Virus record (IMG/VR): IMGVR_UViG_3300045993_000236
Span: 1 to 23,976 of that record
Source of the DNA: a virus
Length of the DNA stretch: 23,976 nucleotides
Strand: one strand, 5' to 3'
Shown here: positions 3,649 through 17,472 of the stretch, in pieces
Numbering within the stretch: position 1 is the first letter of the stretch
Layout of the letters: each line of letters begins with the position of its first letter
Made by a program: the position numbers and the translations under genes
The notes under the pieces: model-generated
What the model saw: the letters and a program-made list of their open reading frames with translations, nothing else
Told to the model about the DNA's origin: nothing
Databases searched by the model: none

Positions 3649-4242
3649 TTAGATGCTATTAACGGCTGCTTTGTACTGGTGCTCATTGATCCGCACAGTA
3701 GCGGTCACATAAGCGTCAGTCAAGCTGTCGTTCGGGAAGTTATGGAAGCCTGTGATCTGGAATTGACCAGAGGTCGCTTGGATCACAGTAAGGGAGGTGG
3801 CAGACAAGCCTGTGGAAGTAGAGCCGCCCGGTGCGGTTGCCGTCCAGTCGCATTCTTCACCCACTGCCGTTTGCACGGTAGTACCAGCCGAGGGGTTGGC
3901 ATACTGCACATCGAACAGAGTTTCTGGGTCATCGTACACGTAGGCAACGATGTCCGTTGCGGTCGTGCCAGAAGGCCAGAAGGGAGAGATTGTTGGTTTG
4001 CCGAGGGAATCTTTGTACTCAACACCTGCGAAGATGCCAAGCAAAGAGATGCCGTCAACGGTGCCGGTACGGGAACCGTCAGACGTGCCGAGTTGAATGA
4101 CGCCAGCGTCGACGAGCTTTACCGGGTCACCGGCAAAGATGTTGACAGCTGTGCCAGTCGCGATCGTATAGGCCTTCGGACGCATTTGACCACTGTTGTG
4201 GAAACTCGGACGAAAGCCAAAAGGTGCGCTAGTAGAAGACAT
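3649..4242 (-). CDS. capsid-associated structural protein (putative head fibre/decoration)
   Basis: 197 residues starting MSSTSAPFGFRPSFHNSGQM, with AGGAG before the ATG at 4242. The N-terminal 'APFGFRPxxHxSGQxRP' signature recurs in phage proteins encoded immediately upstream of the major capsid gene. The rest is rich in T, G, S and D with beta-strand spacing (for example TIATGTAVNIFAGDPVKL, VDGISLLGIFAGVEY, QFQITGFHNFP). No enzyme motif is present. The 13-base spacing to the capsid gene, which holds that gene's Shine-Dalgarno, indicates co-transcription. A decoration or capsid-completion role is likely but inferred. Confidence 0.6.
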   Translation of the reverse strand: MSSTSAPFGFRPSFHNSGQMRPKAYTIATGTAVNIFAGDPVKLVDAGVIQLGTSDGSRTGTVDGISLLGIFAGVEYKDSLGKPTISPFWPSGTTATDIVAYVYDDPETLFDVQYANPSAGTTVQTAVGEECDWTATAPGGSTSTGLSATSLTVIQATSGQFQITGFHNFPNDSLTDAYVTATVRINEHQYKAAVNSI

Positions 4243-4276
4243 AGCTTACTCCTAATGGGTTAGATGAAAAATCACG

Positions 4277-4807
4277 TCAGGACAACTCAAACTGAGCTTT
4301 CCTGTTTTGGCCCAACTCCTGATTACCATCGCCCACCGTGATATTCGACTTTTCACCACGCGCCTGCTGCTGCATGAAGTTGGCTGTATCAGTCAATTTC
4401 TCCTCTTCACGCAGAGGGGCATCGTGGTGAGCCTCCTTCATGTAGAGTTCATACAGTTTCATCGGCAGTTTGAAAGCCAACATTTCATTGACACCGATCA
4501 TCCCTGAGTACTCGCCAGTTTTCACTGTGGCATACTCCCAGCCGGGAACGTCTTCCGGCTTCACGGGTTCGTAACCGAGGCGTGTGCGGCCTTGGATAGA
4601 GTCCCGAGGATTACTCGTTGTTAGCCAGCACATGTGCCAGCCGGGTAGTTTAGGCAAATCCGGAAGTGCGGACTGGAAAAAACTTTGACGGAACATTTCA
4701 ACTCGCTCATCATCAGACAACTCACGATTTTCAGTCACAGCGCGATCATTCATCGCACGACTGTCACGATTGTCACCAGCGGATTTCTTTAGTCTTTCGT
4801 CGCTCAT
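4277..4807 (-). CDS. conserved phage protein of the head module, unknown function
   Basis: 176 residues from the ATG at 4807, with AAGGAG seven bases upstream. The N-terminal 40 residues are charged and probably flexible. The core contains PDLPKLPGWHMCWLTTSNPRD (about 50-70), RLGYEPVKPEDVPGWEY (about 76-92), GVNEMLAFKLPMKLYELYMKE and HHDAPLREEE. This 'PGWHxCWLxTxN ... GYxPV ... NEMLxFKxP ... HHDxP' pattern is shared by proteins near scaffold and capsid genes in podovirus-like phages. No enzymatic motif is seen; it is probably an assembly or minor virion component. It is the first gene after a candidate promoter and after the inserted endonuclease gene. Confidence 0.6.
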   Translation of the reverse strand: MSDERLKKSAGDNRDSRAMNDRAVTENRELSDDERVEMFRQSFFQSALPDLPKLPGWHMCWLTTSNPRDSIQGRTRLGYEPVKPEDVPGWEYATVKTGEYSGMIGVNEMLAFKLPMKLYELYMKEAHHDAPLREEEKLTDTANFMQQQARGEKSNITVGDGNQELGQNRKAQFELS

Positions 4808-4835
4808 TTTCTTGCTCCTTCAGCAATTGGGGGAA

Positions 4836-4864
4836 ATTATAGGGTGGAAATTTAAAAAAGACAA
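4836..4864 (-). promoter_or_regulatory. sigma70-like promoter TTGTCT-17-TATAAT
   Basis: On the minus strand, TTGTCT (4864-4859) and TATAAT (4841-4836) are 17 bases apart, in the gap between the GIY-YIG endonuclease and the 176-residue gene. It could restore or boost transcription of the capsid genes downstream of the inserted endonuclease. The downstream leader AATTGCTGAAGGAGCAA is nearly repeated before the co-chaperonin gene at 6917-6942. Confidence 0.5.
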
Positions 4865-4865
4865 A

Positions 4866-5537
4866 TCAAGCGGAAACTTCAGCTAACGAGGCAGCTTTTC
4901 GGCGTACCCAAGCAGCTTTCAGTTTAGACCGCACTTCGGGTGAAGACATCACCGTTTTCTGTCGAATACGATGTTGCTCACAGAACTCATCAGACCTTTT
5001 GATACCTGTGAGTTTATCACTGATATTTGCCCTAGCTTTTGGGTCTGACATCTGAGCAGTAGTTGAGGCGCTGTGTTTTGCTCGGGTCTCTGCTGATACA
5101 AGTTTACCCTTGTGAGGGGCTGATGTCTTAGCTATGATTTCAGGTGAATTAACAATAGCTTGCATCTTCTCTCGTGTCTCAAGCCTAGCATGCGCAATTT
5201 TATTTGCAGCGCCTATCTTAGCTTTATGCTCTGGTGTGATGGGCTTACCTTTGCCTCCATTCCCACCGTCCCCGCCATCTGTCATGTTCACCAGTTTACC
5301 AAGACCGCAATCAAGCCTGCCATACAGTGCTATGAGTTGCTTTTCTAACTCAAGAGCTTGCTCTGCATCAAGATTGTCAATTTCGATAGTCACTGTGTGC
5401 CCATGTTTTTTGGCAATGTGCTTCCAATGTGGATTACGCTCAGTCTCCCAAGCTCGTTTCTCTTTGCCTTTCCCGACATAGAAAATTTCGCCTGTGTCGT
5501 TACGACGATGGGTGTAAGTGTAAAACTTAGCACTCAT
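4866..5537 (-). CDS. GIY-YIG homing endonuclease, free-standing
   Basis: 223 residues. The N-terminus has the GIY-YIG-type core FYTYTHRRNDTGEIFYVGKGK (residues 5-25), with Y6-Y8 and FYVGKG as the paired motif, followed by RAWETERNPHWKHIAKKHG and later EKQLIALYGR. The C-terminal half has several NUMOD3-like DNA-binding repeats, such as GKPITPEHKAKIGAANK (about 97-113), GKLVSAETRAKHSAS and a related LTGIKRSDEFC segment. Such enzymes cut a specific site and spread their own gene by recombination. The gene overlaps the scaffold stop codon as ATGA (5534-5537), so it is translationally coupled, unusual for a mobile gene. Its DNA is more AT-rich than the scaffold and portal genes, consistent with recent arrival. 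Confidence 0.8.
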   Translation of the reverse strand: MSAKFYTYTHRRNDTGEIFYVGKGKEKRAWETERNPHWKHIAKKHGHTVTIEIDNLDAEQALELEKQLIALYGRLDCGLGKLVNMTDGGDGGNGGKGKPITPEHKAKIGAANKIAHARLETREKMQAIVNSPEIIAKTSAPHKGKLVSAETRAKHSASTTAQMSDPKARANISDKLTGIKRSDEFCEQHRIRQKTVMSSPEVRSKLKAAWVRRKAASLAEVSA

Positions 5538-9824: not shown

Positions 9825-12571
9825 GAGCAGACCTCTGCGGTTGGGTTTTGCTTGGCACGTGGATTGGCCAATTTGGGGCGATTATACCCGTGAACCTTCG
9901 GGGCGACAAGGCCACCGGAGGCGTAGCCGGGTTCGGTAAGTGTTTTGCGCAAGGCACCCTCCCATTCATCACGCGTAACATACCCGTCCTCCGGCAAAAG
10001 TCCTTTTTCATATGCACGCGATATCCCCAACATACGCTCTGAACGAGGCAAACGCAAATCTTCTGGAGCGGGAGTGTAACCTGCCAAGTCAACCAGTGAA
10101 TCTTTGTTAACTCGATACAACCCTGTGTTCTGCAAGTCACCCACATCTGACCACTGGCCTGACTTCACAAAGTCCTGCACGTAGGGTAGGTACTCGTCAT
10201 TGGGCTTACGGTTGGATTTGCCCTTGATTTGGAGTATCCTATCTTCAATAGGCACCATCAAGGCTTTACCTTCAGGCGAGTACATCATAGGTTGCGAATT
10301 AGGGCTTGGAGCCAATCCACGTATACGCAACGCTTCTTGGATGTCTGGGTTTAACCCACCGAATGGTAAAGACCCTTCAGGAGCTTTTGCACCTGGAGAC
10401 ATCTCAATCGTCACATGCGGTGTGCCCTTGGAGTCGCGCAGGGAATACAGTTTTACCCTTCCATCACGAGCCGCCTGCAGTCCACCTACCCCGTAGCCCC
10501 CTTCTGAGGCGTACCCACCGACCGAGTGGCCCATAGCGCCACCTTCGTAAAGTACTGCGTCCTGGAATGGGGCGTCTTCACCTTGGTGCTTCAACTCAAC
10601 CCACTTCAGTCCATGCTCTGGGTAGTCTTTGTGAAGAACTGTGGCAGCGTTGTTGGCTTTTGCAGCATTGGCCTCTGCAGCCTTGGCCTCACGCCAGGCA
10701 TTGATCTTGGCTACCCGTTCCACAGCCTGAGGAACCGACACTTGAGGCAGGCTGGAGTACTTGAGCAGGAGTTCCGGTGGCAGACCTGAGGTGGGATCAG
10801 TCGCGTTGCGGAGTTCGTCGATCAAGTGGTCGAAGCCGAGGCTCTTAGGTTTCTGCCAATCGTATGGAGCATTCACTCTAGTCTCTGGAGGAACTTTAGT
10901 AAGCCATGGGTTTTGCTCTACAATCCGATCTGAAACTTGCCCTCCTCCGTTACCAATCATTTGGCCTGCGCTTCTTTGATCCAGGTAATTATCGGCTACA
11001 TTTTCCCAGCCTTTCGCTTGAACCTCTTGAGCTAAGCCCTCATCGGGAAACCCCGACGCTCGTCGCTCTGCTCGTGGTATCCTACCAGTTCTCGGGTTAC
11101 CTTCAAAGTTAAGGTTGACATGTATCGGTCCCTTCTCGGCTAGCGCCCTGATCGGGTCACCCGGCGTGGCCATATCGTTCTTGACATACCGGGTGAGTTG
11201 TTTGTCGATCCAGTTATTCAGAGAATTATCAACAGCACCCCCGCCAGTTGTTAAATAATCATTCCACATCTCATCAGTTACAACATGTTGACCAACCCGG
11301 TCAGGGCGCTTCATAGTTTTCTTCAACCCAGTCAGTGAGTCCTCCACAGAGCCCCGCAGCCAGTTACCCCCCGGCAGCTTGACCACACCAGCTTCACGGC
11401 TCAAGGTACTGGGCACCATGGCGTTGCGTGCAGCGACCTTGGCCACTTTGACTGCACCCTTGGCGGGTAGGGTTGAACCCACTCCACCCAGCATTGAACC
11501 GAGCGACTCAACATCATCAGCGCCGATGCCTGTCTGTCCACCCGGTAACCACTCACGGTAGAAGTCCGAGGTGGGCAGCGCGGGTGTCTCACTTAGATTG
11601 CGATCAACGTACGAGCCGGGTGCTGCACCATACCTGAGCGCCATGCGGGCTAGCCCTTCAAGGTCGCCCGGCAACCCCGCTGTGCCCGCTGCCCAACCCC
11701 GAGCGAGGGATTGCAGCGGGTTGGCTGTCTTGGCCTGTGGCTTGTGGGTCATCTGGTCGGGGTTGGTGACCCGTCCCCCATCAGCATACAACTGCGTCAC
11801 CTCCTGTACGTCCTCGGGCATCAATCTACGTGCACGAGTGGTGATTGGTTCCTGCGCCCCGCTACCCATCGTGATATGGCCGTAGTTCTTGCCAGCAAAG
11901 GGATCAACCATGAGCATCTCAGCGTGTGGGTCTTGCCCGGTCTGCGCGGCACGCTTCTGGGCGTAGTAGTCAGCAACACGCTTCTGCGGACTGGTGAATA
12001 TCGGCTCGGTAGGTGCGGCGCTGACGTTCTCACCCGGCAGCGCGATGAAGACCTCCCCCTCACCTGCTCCACGCCCCATACCCACATCAAAGGCTCGTGC
12101 CGAGTCGTGTTGGCGGTTCCATAGTTCGCTGATCAGATCACCAACCTGACCGCCGTGTAGGTTCTCATCCAGCGCTGATGCTGGTGTATAGTAGTTGGCC
12201 GCGTTGTCAGGTACGTACTTTGCGGCAAGCTCTTCCAGTTCCTTGGGCGTCGCTGTGCTGCGTGGCCGGGGTGCTAGTGCTACCACCTTACCGTTGTCGG
12301 CCTTCATGTCGGCATAGCTTTGCGCCATGTTCCTGTCACGTGACATGTATAGTGGTCGGTTGGTCTCCGTGCCGGGAACGTACGTCCCGCCATGATAGTG
12401 CACGACAGGGGAGCCTGCATCACCTGCGTAACCCCTGTACACGCCTTGCAACATTGGCTTGGGCTTGGCAGCGTCCCTTGCCACCTGCAGTGCGAGGGCT
12501 TCGGCCTCGTTGGGGCGAACCTTTGCGGCCAGCTTGGCCAGCGCCTTGAGGACGGTTGTGCTAGGCGGCAT
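9815..12571 (-). CDS. large multi-domain 'polyvalent'-type protein with ART-like N-terminus and PcfJ-like C-terminal domain
   Basis: 918 residues. The N-terminus carries VYRGYAG (44-50) and LYMSRDRNMAQSYADMK (74-90), reminiscent of an ADP-ribosyltransferase-like fold, though the catalytic triad is not certain. Short glycine hinges YADGGRV (262-268) and YASGGLV (883-889) flank the rest. Residues 286-345 have RGWAAGTAGLPGDLEGLAR and ETPALPTSDFYREWLPG, also seen in phage polyvalent proteins. A PcfJ-like block follows: MGHSVGGY (680-687), KLYSLRD (707-713), HVTIE (719-723), QIKGKSNRKP (781-790), then YVQDFVKSGQWSDVGDLQ (797-814). The family norm is HCVGGY; here cysteine is serine (S683). Overlaps terminase by 11 bases and portal by 10. 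Polyvalent proteins are thought to be injected with phage DNA as counter-defence or takeover factors; that role is inferred. Confidence 0.6.
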   Translation of the reverse strand: MPPSTTVLKALAKLAAKVRPNEAEALALQVARDAAKPKPMLQGVYRGYAGDAGSPVVHYHGGTYVPGTETNRPLYMSRDRNMAQSYADMKADNGKVVALAPRPRSTATPKELEELAAKYVPDNAANYYTPASALDENLHGGQVGDLISELWNRQHDSARAFDVGMGRGAGEGEVFIALPGENVSAAPTEPIFTSPQKRVADYYAQKRAAQTGQDPHAEMLMVDPFAGKNYGHITMGSGAQEPITTRARRLMPEDVQEVTQLYADGGRVTNPDQMTHKPQAKTANPLQSLARGWAAGTAGLPGDLEGLARMALRYGAAPGSYVDRNLSETPALPTSDFYREWLPGGQTGIGADDVESLGSMLGGVGSTLPAKGAVKVAKVAARNAMVPSTLSREAGVVKLPGGNWLRGSVEDSLTGLKKTMKRPDRVGQHVVTDEMWNDYLTTGGGAVDNSLNNWIDKQLTRYVKNDMATPGDPIRALAEKGPIHVNLNFEGNPRTGRIPRAERRASGFPDEGLAQEVQAKGWENVADNYLDQRSAGQMIGNGGGQVSDRIVEQNPWLTKVPPETRVNAPYDWQKPKSLGFDHLIDELRNATDPTSGLPPELLLKYSSLPQVSVPQAVERVAKINAWREAKAAEANAAKANNAATVLHKDYPEHGLKWVELKHQGEDAPFQDAVLYEGGAMGHSVGGYASEGGYGVGGLQAARDGRVKLYSLRDSKGTPHVTIEMSPGAKAPEGSLPFGGLNPDIQEALRIRGLAPSPNSQPMMYSPEGKALMVPIEDRILQIKGKSNRKPNDEYLPYVQDFVKSGQWSDVGDLQNTGLYRVNKDSLVDLAGYTPAPEDLRLPRSERMLGISRAYEKGLLPEDGYVTRDEWEGALRKTLTEPGYASGGLVAPKVHGYNRPKLANPRAKQNPTAEVCSCR
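9881..9909 (-). promoter_or_regulatory. sigma70-like promoter TTGTCG-17-TATAAT upstream of portal
   Basis: On the minus strand, TTGTCG (9909-9904) and TATAAT (9886-9881) are 17 bases apart, inside the 3' end of the polyvalent gene and about 60 bases before the portal ATG. The match to the elements at 1841-1868 and 4836-4864 makes chance less likely, but it lies in coding sequence. Confidence 0.4.
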
Positions 12572-14138
12572 AAGGGTTCAGCCTTTCTTTGCGCTGACGG
12601 GGTTCATCGTCGGGGTCTTTGGCCCGAGGGAGTTCAAACCAACCGTCATTCTTGAGGTAGATAACGGCTTGTGTCATACAGTCAACATATTCATCATGCT
12701 CCGCCGTAGGAAACTTCGCCACCTGCTTCATGAAGCCAGCAGCCCACGTAACAGGCTGACCGGGATTCTTAGCCGACTCGGGTATCCACAGCAAGCCAAG
12801 CTCAAGAGTGGGAGCAGCCTGATGAGCGCGTGATACTTTATCCGCCTGACCGGGATTATACCCCACCGCAGGCACTCGGGCAAGCCGCAGATCTTGCAGC
12901 AGGGATTGCCCGCTGGCCTTGGCCTCAACCAGTATGCGGTCGGGTCGTCTGCCCTTGGTCATGTAGCCCGCACCCTTGCTGCTGTCGCCCCCGTACACCG
13001 TGCTCCAGTCATCAACCACCTTGGTGCGTAGGTCAGGGTAGGACAGGTGCTCATCCCACGCATCCAGCAGCATAGCGTTGCGCTCACCTTTGTGCGTGAA
13101 CACGCCCCACACCTCACACCCCGTGGGGTCGCCGGAGGTCTTCTCGGTGAATGCGGTGTCATAGCTTTGCAGCACGTACTCAAACGCAGGGAGCCGGGTG
13201 CCGTGTGGCCATAACTGGAAGTACTTGGTCTTGAGTATGCCGCCCTCGGCCGGGGAAGGGTCTTGTTGCAACTGACCGCTGGCGCCATACGTGCCCAGCA
13301 GTTGCTTCAGGCTGGTGATCTCATCAGGTCCGAACCGCTCGGGGCAGATCAGCTCATCCTTGACCTTGCGCGGGTCATAGTACCCCAACGAGGTCTTGCG
13401 TCGCTTGCCGTCCCACTCGGCCGGGATGCATATGTGTTCCCAATCCTTCAGGTCTTCAAGGATGTAACCGCTAACGTCCTTCTCGTGCAGCCGTTGCATC
13501 ACGACTACCATGGCGTCCTTCTTGGGGTCATTCAGCCGGGTGGACCAGACGGTCTTGAACCACTCAAGGGTTCCTTCCCGCAGTGCGTCAGACTGCGCGT
13601 CTTGCGCGCCGTGGGGGTCGTCCAGCACAAGGCGCGAACCACCCTCTCCGGTTGCCGTACCACCCACGCTGGTGGCGATGCGGTACCCGGTCTTGTCGTT
13701 CTCGAACCTCTGCTTGGCGTTTTGGTCGCCCGCAATCTGGAACAGGTTGCCCCACCGCTCTTGATACCACGGCGACTGCAACAGGCGACGAGCTTTCAGG
13801 TTGTCACGTATTGATAGCACTCCGGAGTAGGAGGCTGACAGGAACTTTTGTCCGGGATCAACCAACCATTCCCAGCACGGCCAAATCACCGAGACTATTG
13901 TCGACTTGCTATGCCGAGGGGGAATGTTAATTAATAGCTTGCGTATATCCCCGTCGCTAATTGCCTGCAGGTGTTCACATATTGTTTCAATGTGCCACGA
14001 CTCAACAAACTTAACACCCGGCTCAACTATTGGCCACGACTGCTTGACAAACTCGTAGAGGTTATCCTCGGCTGCACGCTTGGCTATTTCAAACTGCACC
14101 AGCCTGAGTAACTCCGCTGGGCCCATGGGCGCAGTCAC
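12561..14138 (-). CDS. terL: terminase large subunit (DNA-packaging ATPase/nuclease)
   Basis: 525 residues. The ATPase domain has a Walker-A-like PPRHSKST (73-80) and Walker B RLVLDDP (169-175). The RNase-H-like nuclease domain has SYDTAF with D327, LVEAKASG with E405, and HDEYVDCMTQA with D486, the acidic set that binds metal for DNA cleavage. GQLQQDPSPAEGGILK (288-303) is the typical linker block between the domains. The enzyme cuts concatemers and pumps DNA through the portal. The start is GTG at 14138, overlapping the small-subunit stop (GTGA); an in-frame ATG at 14126 is the alternative. Its first 250 bases are visibly more AT-rich than the rest. Confidence 0.9.
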   Translation of the reverse strand: MTAPMGPAELLRLVQFEIAKRAAEDNLYEFVKQSWPIVEPGVKFVESWHIETICEHLQAISDGDIRKLLINIPPRHSKSTIVSVIWPCWEWLVDPGQKFLSASYSGVLSIRDNLKARRLLQSPWYQERWGNLFQIAGDQNAKQRFENDKTGYRIATSVGGTATGEGGSRLVLDDPHGAQDAQSDALREGTLEWFKTVWSTRLNDPKKDAMVVVMQRLHEKDVSGYILEDLKDWEHICIPAEWDGKRRKTSLGYYDPRKVKDELICPERFGPDEITSLKQLLGTYGASGQLQQDPSPAEGGILKTKYFQLWPHGTRLPAFEYVLQSYDTAFTEKTSGDPTGCEVWGVFTHKGERNAMLLDAWDEHLSYPDLRTKVVDDWSTVYGGDSSKGAGYMTKGRRPDRILVEAKASGQSLLQDLRLARVPAVGYNPGQADKVSRAHQAAPTLELGLLWIPESAKNPGQPVTWAAGFMKQVAKFPTAEHDEYVDCMTQAVIYLKNDGWFELPRAKDPDDEPRQRKERLNPYAA

Positions 14139-14689
14139 GGCAGTTGGGGATTAGTCTTCTTCAGCATAGCTTCCATTTGCGCCAGCTCCGCTGATGAAAG
14201 GTTATTCAAACTCAGTGCGGCCATTTGGATTGGGCCTCCCCCTGCTCCAGTGAGTTCAGTGGTTACTTTGTCGCCGTAGACCTTGGGTAGCATCTTGCTC
14301 AGTATCCACTTGCGCGTGTCAACACGGAGCCTGTTGCGGGCAACGCCTGTCGAGTCTAGAGCCAGCACAGCCTCTTCACCCTCATAGCGGACAGCTACAT
14401 CCTTCTCGTCGCTGATGGCGATGATCTCCTCGGCGAGCATGTTGTAGCCTATAGCGCGCGCGGACGCGTACAGTTTGGCAAGGTCCGGGTATTGCTCCAT
14501 CCACGCCAACACCGATGCCGGGGTAGGACACTCCTTGACGAGCTTGCATGCGTCCTTGAGCGTACCGCCAGCTTCAAGGTGCCCGCAAAGCTCTTTCACG
14601 ATGTCCTCACGTGACCGAGTACGAGGCTTGACCCCCGGTGGTAGCGGCCTGACCTTGCTCTTCACAGCAGGAGGGGTCTGTTTGCTCAT
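14135..14689 (-). CDS. terS: terminase small subunit
   Basis: 184 residues from the ATG at 14689 (MSKQTPPAVKSKVRPLPP), chosen because AGGAGGT lies 11 bases upstream. The open frame extends to 14752, but the extra residues overlap the previous gene. Residues about 25-80 (REDIVKELCGHLEAGGTLKD, then ACKLVKECPTPASVLAWME) form a helix-turn-helix of the type used by small terminases to recognise packaging sites. The middle helices ARAIGYNMLAEEIIAISDE and VDTRKWILSKMLPKVYGDK are typical of the oligomerisation region. The partner gene follows in GTGA overlap. It selects viral DNA and regulates the large subunit. Confidence 0.85.
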   Translation of the reverse strand: MSKQTPPAVKSKVRPLPPGVKPRTRSREDIVKELCGHLEAGGTLKDACKLVKECPTPASVLAWMEQYPDLAKLYASARAIGYNMLAEEIIAISDEKDVAVRYEGEEAVLALDSTGVARNRLRVDTRKWILSKMLPKVYGDKVTTELTGAGGGPIQMAALSLNNLSSAELAQMEAMLKKTNPQLP

Positions 14690-14696
14690 GTTACGA

Positions 14697-15086
14697 TTAT
14701 ACCTCCTGTTTTTGAGCCAGCAAAACCGAGCGTTCGTGCGCTCGTTGTTCACTGATGCGTTGCCGTTCTAATCTGCGAGTATTTACATCAACCTCGTAAA
14801 TATCATCCGTTGGATCCCAATCATACGTTAATAAATCCGGCAAATCTGCGTAAAGGACTACATTTTCAAAATAGATTTGGTTTTCGAGGTCTGTATCTTC
14901 ATAAACTTCCGGTTTAGCTTTTATTGATCTTAACTCACAACCCGAATCATTATGCCAAACAACAACCTCGTTGGCTTCATTGATTAACATCGGACGGCAC
15001 AAAAACGTCAGCCCGTCCGGCAGTGTAGACACCACCTCAAAAAGCTCTGCACCTCTGTGTTTGCTTCCGCGCAAAATCAAGAACAT
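14697..15086 (-). CDS. uncharacterised protein at the head of the packaging module
   Basis: 129 residues from the ATG at 15086 (MFLILRGSKHRGAELFEVVS). This start is chosen because AAGAGGAG lies eight bases upstream; an ATG at 15092 and GTG at 15095 are too close to that site. There are two parts: a beta-rich N-terminal half (LTFLCRPMLINEANEVVVW) and an acidic then arginine-rich C-terminal half (DPTDDIYEVDVNTRRLERQR). No recognised domain. The gene is AT-rich compared with the terminase genes. It borders the repeat-rich gap and is probably first in the leftward packaging transcript. Confidence 0.5.
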   Translation of the reverse strand: MFLILRGSKHRGAELFEVVSTLPDGLTFLCRPMLINEANEVVVWHNDSGCELRSIKAKPEVYEDTDLENQIYFENVVLYADLPDLLTYDWDPTDDIYEVDVNTRRLERQRISEQRAHERSVLLAQKQEV

Positions 15087-15414
15087 TGTCATCACTCCTC
15101 TTCAAAAAAGTTAAAAATCAACCCACTTGCGCCTGTTTGGGTTTTTTGAACAGGCGCAACCTAAATGACCCTCTTCTCAAAATGGTTACTCACTGAAAAT
15201 ATTGCGTCCAGGTTGCGCCTTTTTGGTTGCGCCTCCCTTAAGGGAAAAAGGACAGGCGCAACCCCACTGACGCTGAAGCCGCAAGGAGAAGGAAGGGGAC
15301 GGAGCCCCCCCTTCCCTTCTGCGCCAACGAGCGTTTTATCTTGCGCTTGCGCTTGGTTGCGCTTGGTTGCGCTTGTTAACTTCCTAAAAACAGGCGCAAC
15401 CTCAAACCTCGAGT
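15087..15414. other. repeat-rich intergenic region, candidate origin or control region
   Basis: No convincing gene is seen in these roughly 330 bases. It holds ten TTGCGC/GCGCAA units, three exact copies of ACAGGCGCAACC, a strong hairpin (15127-15159), a 12-bp palindrome TCCCTTAAGGGA (15234-15245), and a purine/pyrimidine stem formed by 15287-15298 and 15305-15320. It lies just downstream of the primase-helicase gene. An 85-codon open frame (15161-15418) crosses it but reads like translated repeat. Confidence 0.55.
15127..15402. repeat. TTGCGC iteron-like cluster (7 forward, 3 reverse copies)
   Basis: Forward TTGCGC at 15127, 15213, 15227, 15341, 15347, 15357 and 15367; reverse GCGCAA at 15154, 15256 and 15394. 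ACAGGCGCAACC occurs exactly at 15150-15161, 15252-15263 and 15390-15401. GGTTGCGCTT is tandem at 15355-15374. TTGCGCCTGTT (15127-15137) pairs with AACAGGCGCAA (15149-15159), and GGTTGCGCCT (15225-15234) pairs with AGGCGCAACC (15254-15263). Direct plus inverted copies of one short word near a replication gene suggest protein-binding iterons, or a small invasive repeat family. Confidence 0.65.
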
Positions 15415-17472
15415 TCATATTCTGTACCCCCCGTGCAGCGCGGCATGACGTTCCTCGTCAACAATGAGAACTGTTTTCTCAGCTCCACGTTGAACTCGTG
15501 GGGGAACTTCTTTTAGCTCGCCGCGCACAAGTAGCGCGTTCAGCGCAGCTTGTTTGACCTTCCACGTATGCCCGGGACCACCGTCTTCTTTGGATTTGTT
15601 GTAATAATAGCTCATAGACCGCTCAGGCTCAGTACGGACCATCTCCCACATGACCGCCTGCAGAGTTTCGGTTTTGCTCTGAGCAGCCGCCTCCACTGCG
15701 CTCTCACGGGCGATTTCGCGGTCAGTAGCACTCGACCAGTCGAAGGTGACCGAGTCGAGTATGACCGTTTGAATGCGACTGAACTCATCCACCGCTGTTT
15801 GTGATGACTGGCGCAGCTCCAAGCGTAACTCGAGGTAACGAGGGCTGTAGCGCTTCTTACCTAAGACGATGTAACGCACGTCGTCTTCCTCGAAGATGCC
15901 AGAAGTGAGAGTGGTGTCGCCACCCCATGCTCCTGCGCCCCGAGGGTCGGTTATGAACTCATTACGGGTAGAATGCTTATGCGAGTGACCGACCATGCAA
16001 ACCGAGCATTTCATTTTCTCAAAGAACTCGGACTTGAGCATTGCCAAAACAGCGGCCACTTCCGAGTTGCTATTTTCATCTTCCAAATGAAACGATGATG
16101 AGGTAGTATCAAATATTAACCATGGTTTCATTACCACGCCGGATTCGTGAGTTACGCAATTGTCAGCAACAATCTGTTTCAGGCCCAATAACTCTTTTGC
16201 GCTGACCCTGCGTGCTGGAATAACTACAAATGATTTTTTGACCTCTTGAAAGCTCAGCCCAAAGTTATGTTCTAATGCTATTAAGTTACGCTTAAACTGC
16301 TCGGTATCTTCAGTGATGTAAATAATCTTCCTGCCGACTGCCGGGGAGCGGAGCGGGCATCCCGGTAGGATGTGCCCCGCAACCACCGCACAAAGCGCTA
16401 CCATAGCGGTTGACTTACCCATACCAGGCTTGCCCACAAACACCATGAGCGAGTGTGCCAAGAACTCATCCACCAAGTAGTTGACCGCCTCGACCTTACC
16501 GTCACCCAGATCGATTGGTTGCCACAACGACTCAGTTTGCGGTTCATCTGACGAGGGCTCAGGCTCCGGCAGCTTGCCGTACTGCTTTGCCACGTGGAAC
16601 ACCGACTGGTAACTGACCGTGTAGTCCTCCCGCATGCAGGAGCGCCATTTGGTATCGAAGTCAGAACTTGTGTGGTTGTCTTTGTTAGAGCGCAAGCTCC
16701 AGTCACGAGCCAGAGTGTATGCCTTTTCCTTATTCGACAGTCGACTCAAGCCTTGCAGCACCTTGAACCATCCGTCATTGTATCCCAACTCGGGTGGTAT
16801 CAGGGTCAGTGCCCGCTCCAAGTCGGCGTAAACTTCCGGTGCGACTATGACCGAGGCCGGGTGCACTGCCACGCTGAGTGAAGGAGTAGCTGTGCGCCCC
16901 AGCAATAATGAGGGTGCCCGAGTGGGCAGCGACCCTGTCATAGGGCTCTTGCCCGACTGCCATGCGTATCTACCCTGCTGGCCCTGTGAGGGCTCCACCA
17001 GTATGTAACCGTTGTACTTGATGTCAATGCCCGGACCGAGCGTACCGGGATAGGTGCCGTCGGGTTCCGCGCTGAACACCCGGTGCTCACCGCCGCCTTG
17101 GGTAGTGCTGGTGACTGACGAGTAGACTACCCCGTGTTCGGCTTCGAGTTTGGCCAGCGTCTCGTAACCCCCGTTGCGCGGATCAATGTCCATGACGACC
17201 AGACCCGAGCGCGCACAGGCTATAGCTATTCCGGCCGCAGGGTGCTGGCCCCAGATCTTGCGTATGAGGGCAGGGTCTTTGGTCGCTGTTGACAGGCCAT
17301 AGCCATCAACAGGCTTTTTGTCAATGCGCACTGGGATGACGTACCATCCCAGGTCAGCGTAGCGTAGCGCAAAGTCGAGCGGAGTATCCGTCAGGTGCGG
17401 ATGCTCTTGTTGTATAGTAGGTGTAACTAGCGCGAGCCGTACTGGCTCCGTGTCGAAGCCAAATTTGCTCAT
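15415..17472 (-). CDS. primase-polymerase / RepA-type helicase fusion
   Basis: 685 residues. The N-terminal Prim-Pol (archaeo-eukaryotic primase) domain has LVVMDIDPRNGG with catalytic D95 and D97, GGGEHRVFS with H130, and GIDIKYNGYILVEPS (148-162). Next is a PriCT-like helical segment, DLERALTLIPPELGYNDGWF (217-236). The C-terminal ATPase has Walker A GKPGMGKST (347-355), Walker B WLIFDT (451-456) and VGHSHK (494-499), as in RepA/RecA-like hexameric helicases. Such fusions prime and unwind phage DNA. No clear Shine-Dalgarno precedes the ATG at 17472. The core around 16,060-16,330 is AT-richer than the flanks (20 G/C of 60 in 16261-16320). The stop overlaps an ATG (15415-15418). Confidence 0.82.
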   Translation of the reverse strand: MSKFGFDTEPVRLALVTPTIQQEHPHLTDTPLDFALRYADLGWYVIPVRIDKKPVDGYGLSTATKDPALIRKIWGQHPAAGIAIACARSGLVVMDIDPRNGGYETLAKLEAEHGVVYSSVTSTTQGGGEHRVFSAEPDGTYPGTLGPGIDIKYNGYILVEPSQGQQGRYAWQSGKSPMTGSLPTRAPSLLLGRTATPSLSVAVHPASVIVAPEVYADLERALTLIPPELGYNDGWFKVLQGLSRLSNKEKAYTLARDWSLRSNKDNHTSSDFDTKWRSCMREDYTVSYQSVFHVAKQYGKLPEPEPSSDEPQTESLWQPIDLGDGKVEAVNYLVDEFLAHSLMVFVGKPGMGKSTAMVALCAVVAGHILPGCPLRSPAVGRKIIYITEDTEQFKRNLIALEHNFGLSFQEVKKSFVVIPARRVSAKELLGLKQIVADNCVTHESGVVMKPWLIFDTTSSSFHLEDENSNSEVAAVLAMLKSEFFEKMKCSVCMVGHSHKHSTRNEFITDPRGAGAWGGDTTLTSGIFEEDDVRYIVLGKKRYSPRYLELRLELRQSSQTAVDEFSRIQTVILDSVTFDWSSATDREIARESAVEAAAQSKTETLQAVMWEMVRTEPERSMSYYYNKSKEDGGPGHTWKVKQAALNALLVRGELKEVPPRVQRGAEKTVLIVDEERHAALHGGYRI

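Follow-up and report, generated by a model that had tools for sequence, protein, structure and literature searches.

A putative replication origin made of iteron clusters and a central hairpin downstream of a phage PrimPol-AAA_25 gene

What is the role of the repeat-rich gap which, in a 24-kb phage contig (the window, i.e. the whole stretch of 23,976 nucleotides analysed), separates a gene for a proposed initiator primase-helicase from the terminase genes? Ten copies of the hexamer TTGCGC/GCGCAA reside within positions 15127-15402, seven on the plus strand, starting at 15127, 15213, 15227, 15341, 15347, 15357 and 15367, and three on the minus strand, at 15154, 15256 and 15394. A recount has confirmed the number, positions and strands given in a preliminary description, which had placed the cluster beside the primase-helicase gene, as indeed the gap borders directly on the PrimPol/AAA_25 gene (15415-17472, minus strand), and had envisaged an origin bound by an initiator, a control region, or a mobile repeat. 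The chance expectation of 0.13 copies reported there is right for uniform random sequence. In 300 simulated 24-kb windows with the dinucleotide make-up of the real one the maximum per window was 1-5 copies, against 10 copies per 276 bp here; similarly, the best hexamer of whatever sequence reached at most 5 copies in 15 simulations, against 9 non-overlapping copies here. The repeat unit is better described by the longer word CAAGCGCAACC. Its core, the 8-mer GCGCAACC, has seven copies in the window (1.1 expected), all of which fall within the gap, at 15154-15401; three copies starting ACAGGCGCAACC are found at 15150, 15252 and 15390. The gap also hosts seven inverted pairs, and its predicted RNA fold has a z of about -5.5 on both strands. 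Searches of the gap against Rfam, and by BLASTn against phages and plasmids, gave no match.

All the features of the region are annotated on the minus strand and, going in gene direction, the PrimPol stop codon is followed by a first iteron cluster, a central hairpin, a second cluster and a distal hairpin. The array begins 14 bp past the stop codon, and the repeats are thus directly downstream of the initiator gene. Cluster 1, proximal to the initiator (15341-15402), carries one inverted GGTTGCGCCTGTT and two direct CAAGCGCAACC copies 10 bp apart, followed by half-sites GCGCAAGCGCAAG. The central GC-rich hairpin, delimited by alignment and covariation (15269-15325), is the positional homologue of CTCGAYGGACGGAGGAGAGGGC..GCCTCTCTCCGTAGTCGATCAGAGTGG in the aligned relatives. 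In cluster 2 (15210-15264) inverted, direct and direct copies are arranged round an inner palindrome, CCCTTAAGGG, and a similar palindrome is present in L002 and L050. The distal hairpin, GGTTGCGCCTGTT-CAAAAAACCC-AAACAGGCGCAAG, spans 15126-15162. The initiator gene, which encodes PrimPol (PF09250) and AAA_25 (PF13481) domains, has been assigned on the basis of Pfam, PHROGs and the relatives L002 and L101-L105, and is preceded by a gene for a DEAD/ResIII-type helicase. On the other side of the array are a small ORF of 132 aa (14697-15095), for which no homologue was found in the relatives compared, and the genes for TerS, of the Sf6 type (PF20901 in Pfam; 14135-14689), and TerL (12561-14138; PHROGs), the latter used as query for finding relatives. 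A TATAAT box (14696-14701), conserved in the window and many relatives, precedes the TerS ATG by 6 nt and, because of this -10 box, the ATG at 14689 is a more likely start than the listed GTG at 14752. The sequence GGTATAAT, or a close variant, is found in the window (14689-14701), in L002, L101, L105, L116, L120, L131, L141, L150 and in others, with 6-7 nt between it and the TerS ATG. Such a distance suggests that the terS mRNA may be leaderless, or nearly so. A promoter scan of 14700-15700 returned no sigma-70 match.

Relatives were retrieved by TerL and PrimPol searches, 80 loci each. The preliminary description had indicated, as a check, whether related phages conserve the repeat; the layout turned out to be conserved, the word did not. 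Dozens of relatives have, between the initiator and terminase genes, two iteron clusters round a central hairpin, and the iteron word varies. Words found in PrimPol-TerS arrays are TAATCGTTCGG, TAATCAAGTGG, TAACGGG, TAATCGTTTGG, TAACCGTGTGG, TAATCGTGTGG, CCTAAATAAG and CAAGCGCAACC. As an example, L002, the PrimPol of which is 41% identical, has in the equivalent gap an array of the very different word TAATCAAGTGG, and a central hairpin of like kind. Since the architecture, and not the word, is conserved, conservation of the repeat word would have misled as a test for an origin in this case. Arrays are common, not universal, among PrimPol relatives, about half of which have no clear array by an 8-mer criterion; L024 was left out, as its best 8-mer falls in a coding region. 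The word AATCGTTCG is nearly restricted to one array in most of the 12 contigs scanned whole. Additional genes may adjoin the arrays. A GIY-YIG endonuclease gene, possibly a homing insertion, separates the array of L022 from the terminase genes (4343-4984), and in L073 a gene matching PHROG 3704 (ferredoxin, auxiliary) lies between PrimPol and the array (4016-4645).

Pairing of the central hairpin has been maintained. When 20 central regions were aligned, 8 of the 14 predicted pairs showed compensatory changes, and 92.5% of cells are paired. Double changes number 34, against 10.6 in shuffled alignments and 2-9 when the partner is slid, a comparison favouring the structure somewhat, as this was taken from the very alignment tested.

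The C-terminal 120 aa of the PrimPol protein (15418-15777) are predicted by AlphaFold2 (pLDDT 82) to form a long helix followed by a domain having the helix-strand order of a winged helix. Most structural neighbours of this domain belong to the winged-helix proteins, MarR, PadR, MecI and cullin WHB among them, although the winged-helix fold is common, and none of the Foldseek matches falls below E 0.001; a sequence search of the whole protein against solved structures gave no match. The initiator is therefore modelled as carrying a C-terminal DNA-binding domain, which we propose to be the iteron reader. Only four weak relatives were found by scanning bacterial genomes for the PrimPol family, and in plasmid relatives the match is confined to the N-terminal part. 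The window protein is 55-63% identical to those of L101-L105 in the N-domain, only 26-29% in the AAA part, a contrast that suggests domain exchange.

Which protein the iteron word follows was assessed by Mantel and partial tests of iteron distance against protein-domain distance at 21 non-redundant loci. The best single correlate is the winged helix (r 0.72), followed by the AAA domain (0.66), the PrimPol N-domain (0.51) and TerS (0.40). The correlation with the winged helix persists given TerS (partial r 0.65, p 0.0007), is less clear given the AAA domain (partial r 0.43, p 0.01), and that with TerS given the winged helix is lost (partial r -0.02, p 0.54); the iteron classes were assigned by hand, only eight are independent and most loci fall in one of them, so that p values are approximate and the statistics indicative. 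Single comparisons point in the same direction. L101 and L102 have the iteron TAATCAAGTGG in common, and their winged helices are 80% identical, their TerS proteins 48%. L101 and L105, on the other hand, call for caution: their winged helices are 79% identical, yet the words are unlike, and a few residues of the domain may thus decide the word. By correlation, iteron specificity appears to go with the C-terminal domain of PrimPol.

Arrays also accompany primase-helicases of other types. In c6, c9 and c42 the TerL proteins are related to that of the window, the primase-helicases are not, and arrays lie no more than about 300 bp from the stop codon of the primase-helicase gene. Primase-helicases of such TerL relatives are P4-alpha-like PriCT2/Toprim/SF3, PriCT2/SF3 or Toprim/AAA_25 proteins; the arrays reside at the 3' end of their genes, and in many instances a ParB-N/methyltransferase gene precedes TerS. 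At c6 loci, as L056 (3300-3600) and L063 (3360-3620), repeats of TTTGGCACAGGAT are located at the stop codon of the P4-alpha-like primase, and are followed by a ParB-N/N6_N4 methyltransferase gene. DnaA-box-like TTATCCAC(A) motifs are found on both sides of the arrays of L091 (3436-3650) and L096 (1680-1900), which are downstream of Toprim/AAA_25 primase genes.

The region 15126-15402 is probably a replication origin. This conclusion draws on the position of the relatives' arrays between initiator gene and TerS, with the layout kept and the words differing, on the compensatory changes keeping the central hairpin paired, and on the correlation of iteron distance with winged-helix distance, the best among those measured. 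It is further favoured by the arrays close to the stop codons of unrelated primase-helicase genes, by the DnaA-box-like motifs flanking two of them, and by the precedents of SaPI Rep, SCCmec Cch2 and pRN1. According to this proposal, the PrimPol-AAA protein made from the adjoining upstream gene would bind the CAAGCGCAACC iterons of both clusters by its C-terminal winged helix, multimerise either side of the central hairpin, melt the DNA at this hairpin and prime synthesis on the opened structure, and replication would start at the array.

Not all the data fit. A GC-skew switch at the array, another check put forward at the outset, is absent from five contigs of 57-60 kb, in which skew follows gene orientation (coding strand); the sign change typical of a bidirectional origin was hence not found in these contigs. 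The window's array has no classical A+T-rich unwinding element, and DnaA boxes are no more frequent in the window than expected by chance, none of them lying near the array. Among the three initial guesses, the initiator-bound origin is nevertheless the best supported, by arrays at the same place and winged-helix co-variation, GC skew being unsupportive. Also counting against an origin are several genomes in which the array is 1-3.6 kb away from the PrimPol gene, but still beside TerS. An array staying with TerS where genes have been inserted would fit a pac site, or an operator of the late promoter.

If the array were a pac site, TerS would bind the iterons, and the terminase would start the first headful by cutting between the two clusters. 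P1 pac has two clusters of hexanucleotides flanking a central site near a packaging gene, and here too there are two clusters round a centre, which many relatives have immediately before TerS, even when PrimPol is 1-3.6 kb off. Yet the iteron words follow the replication protein, and are independent of TerS once the winged helix is taken into account (partial r -0.02, with the reservations above on the classes). L101 and L104 have unlike iterons and TerS proteins 70% identical, and in most c6 genomes and L091 the array is parted from the terminase genes by a methyltransferase gene. Packaging initiation is thus an unlikely function.

An operator array, at which a regulator, perhaps the winged helix of PrimPol, would bind the repeats and switch the terS/late promoter, is likewise unlikely as the main role. 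The TATAAT box 6-7 nt ahead of the TerS ATG in many relatives, and the last iterons, which in some of them reach the terS promoter and in L002 and L150 lie near the -35 region, are in keeping with such a switch. In contrast, the small ORF in the window, and the GIY-YIG gene in L022 and L104, separate the array from the TerS promoter, c6 arrays are away from terS, and the covarying central hairpin would be left unexplained. A regulatory side-role beside the origin function is plausible because of the promoter element next to the TerS ATG, and the early guess of a control region may hold as a second role, since the last iterons of some relatives extend to this promoter.

A mobile or REP-type element inserted beside the gene would account for the short, hairpin-forming palindromes repeated between two genes, but is very improbable, as many relatives have an array of different words at the equivalent place, and essentially one array per contig was found for the word tested. 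The guess of a mobile repeat is not supported: the window's tandem word is found in only four other viral contigs, single or within coding repeats, as chance or coding matches, its inverted pair has no occurrence elsewhere in viral contigs, and copies scattered at unrelated positions were not seen in those scanned. Equally improbable is a cohesive-end (cos) region, suggested by an array adjoining terS and by the repeats present in lambda cosB, given that in relatives long contigs continue across the array, which speaks against cos and not against pac, that their ends fall at scattered distances, and that short terminal overlaps typical of circular assembly occur in 3 of the 5 contigs checked.

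Returning to the origin, a broader scenario may be tentatively drawn, and we regard it as rather doubtful. Iterons may have been rewritten repeatedly in step with the PrimPol winged helix around a fixed hairpin core, possibly barring the use of each other's origins by co-infecting relatives, the array also touching the terS promoter. If this were true, replication could be coupled to late transcription or packaging. The loci form a naturally occurring set in which different iteron words go together with DNA-reading domains that are close relatives, and on which phage-initiator specificity can be put directly to the test. Likely origins are moreover marked in many uncultivated phages, in which motif conservation alone would find nothing.

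Known replication systems share parts of this arrangement. SaPI Rep uses its C-terminal domain to read the iterons that immediately follow its gene, and SCCmec Cch2 requires for binding the direct repeats found downstream of the operon (PMC7581432). As proposed for the window, an initiator helicase gene is directly followed by short iterons read by a C-terminal domain. The helicases there are not described as PrimPol-AAA_25 fusions (PMC7581432), and the window differs in having a covarying hairpin between two clusters, in a phage with terminase genes. A stem-loop right after the PrimPol gene is indispensable to pRN1, and a like arrangement was proposed by the authors for phage BIP-1 (PMC4234260). 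There, the gene of a PrimPol replication protein with a C-terminal winged helix is immediately followed by a stem-loop (PMC4234260); in the window the winged helix is predicted, and a conserved, covarying stem-loop was found just past the PrimPol replication gene. The helicase of pRN1 is of the SF3 type and iterons are absent, whereas the window protein carries an ATPase of the AAA_25 family (RecA/RepA-like), and the stem-loop has iteron clusters on either side. In P4 a single protein, alpha, combines recognition of the origin repeats through a winged helix with unwinding and priming, as proposed here, but its primase is of the Toprim type (PMC4234260). RSF1010 oriV similarly combines iterons, ssi stem-loops for priming and a hexameric helicase, but relies on three separate proteins, RepC, RepA and RepB', in place of one fused protein (PMC4234260). 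The arrangement in the window thus joins P4-like iterons and a pRN1-like stem-loop, two designs contrasted by Berkner et al. (PMC4234260).
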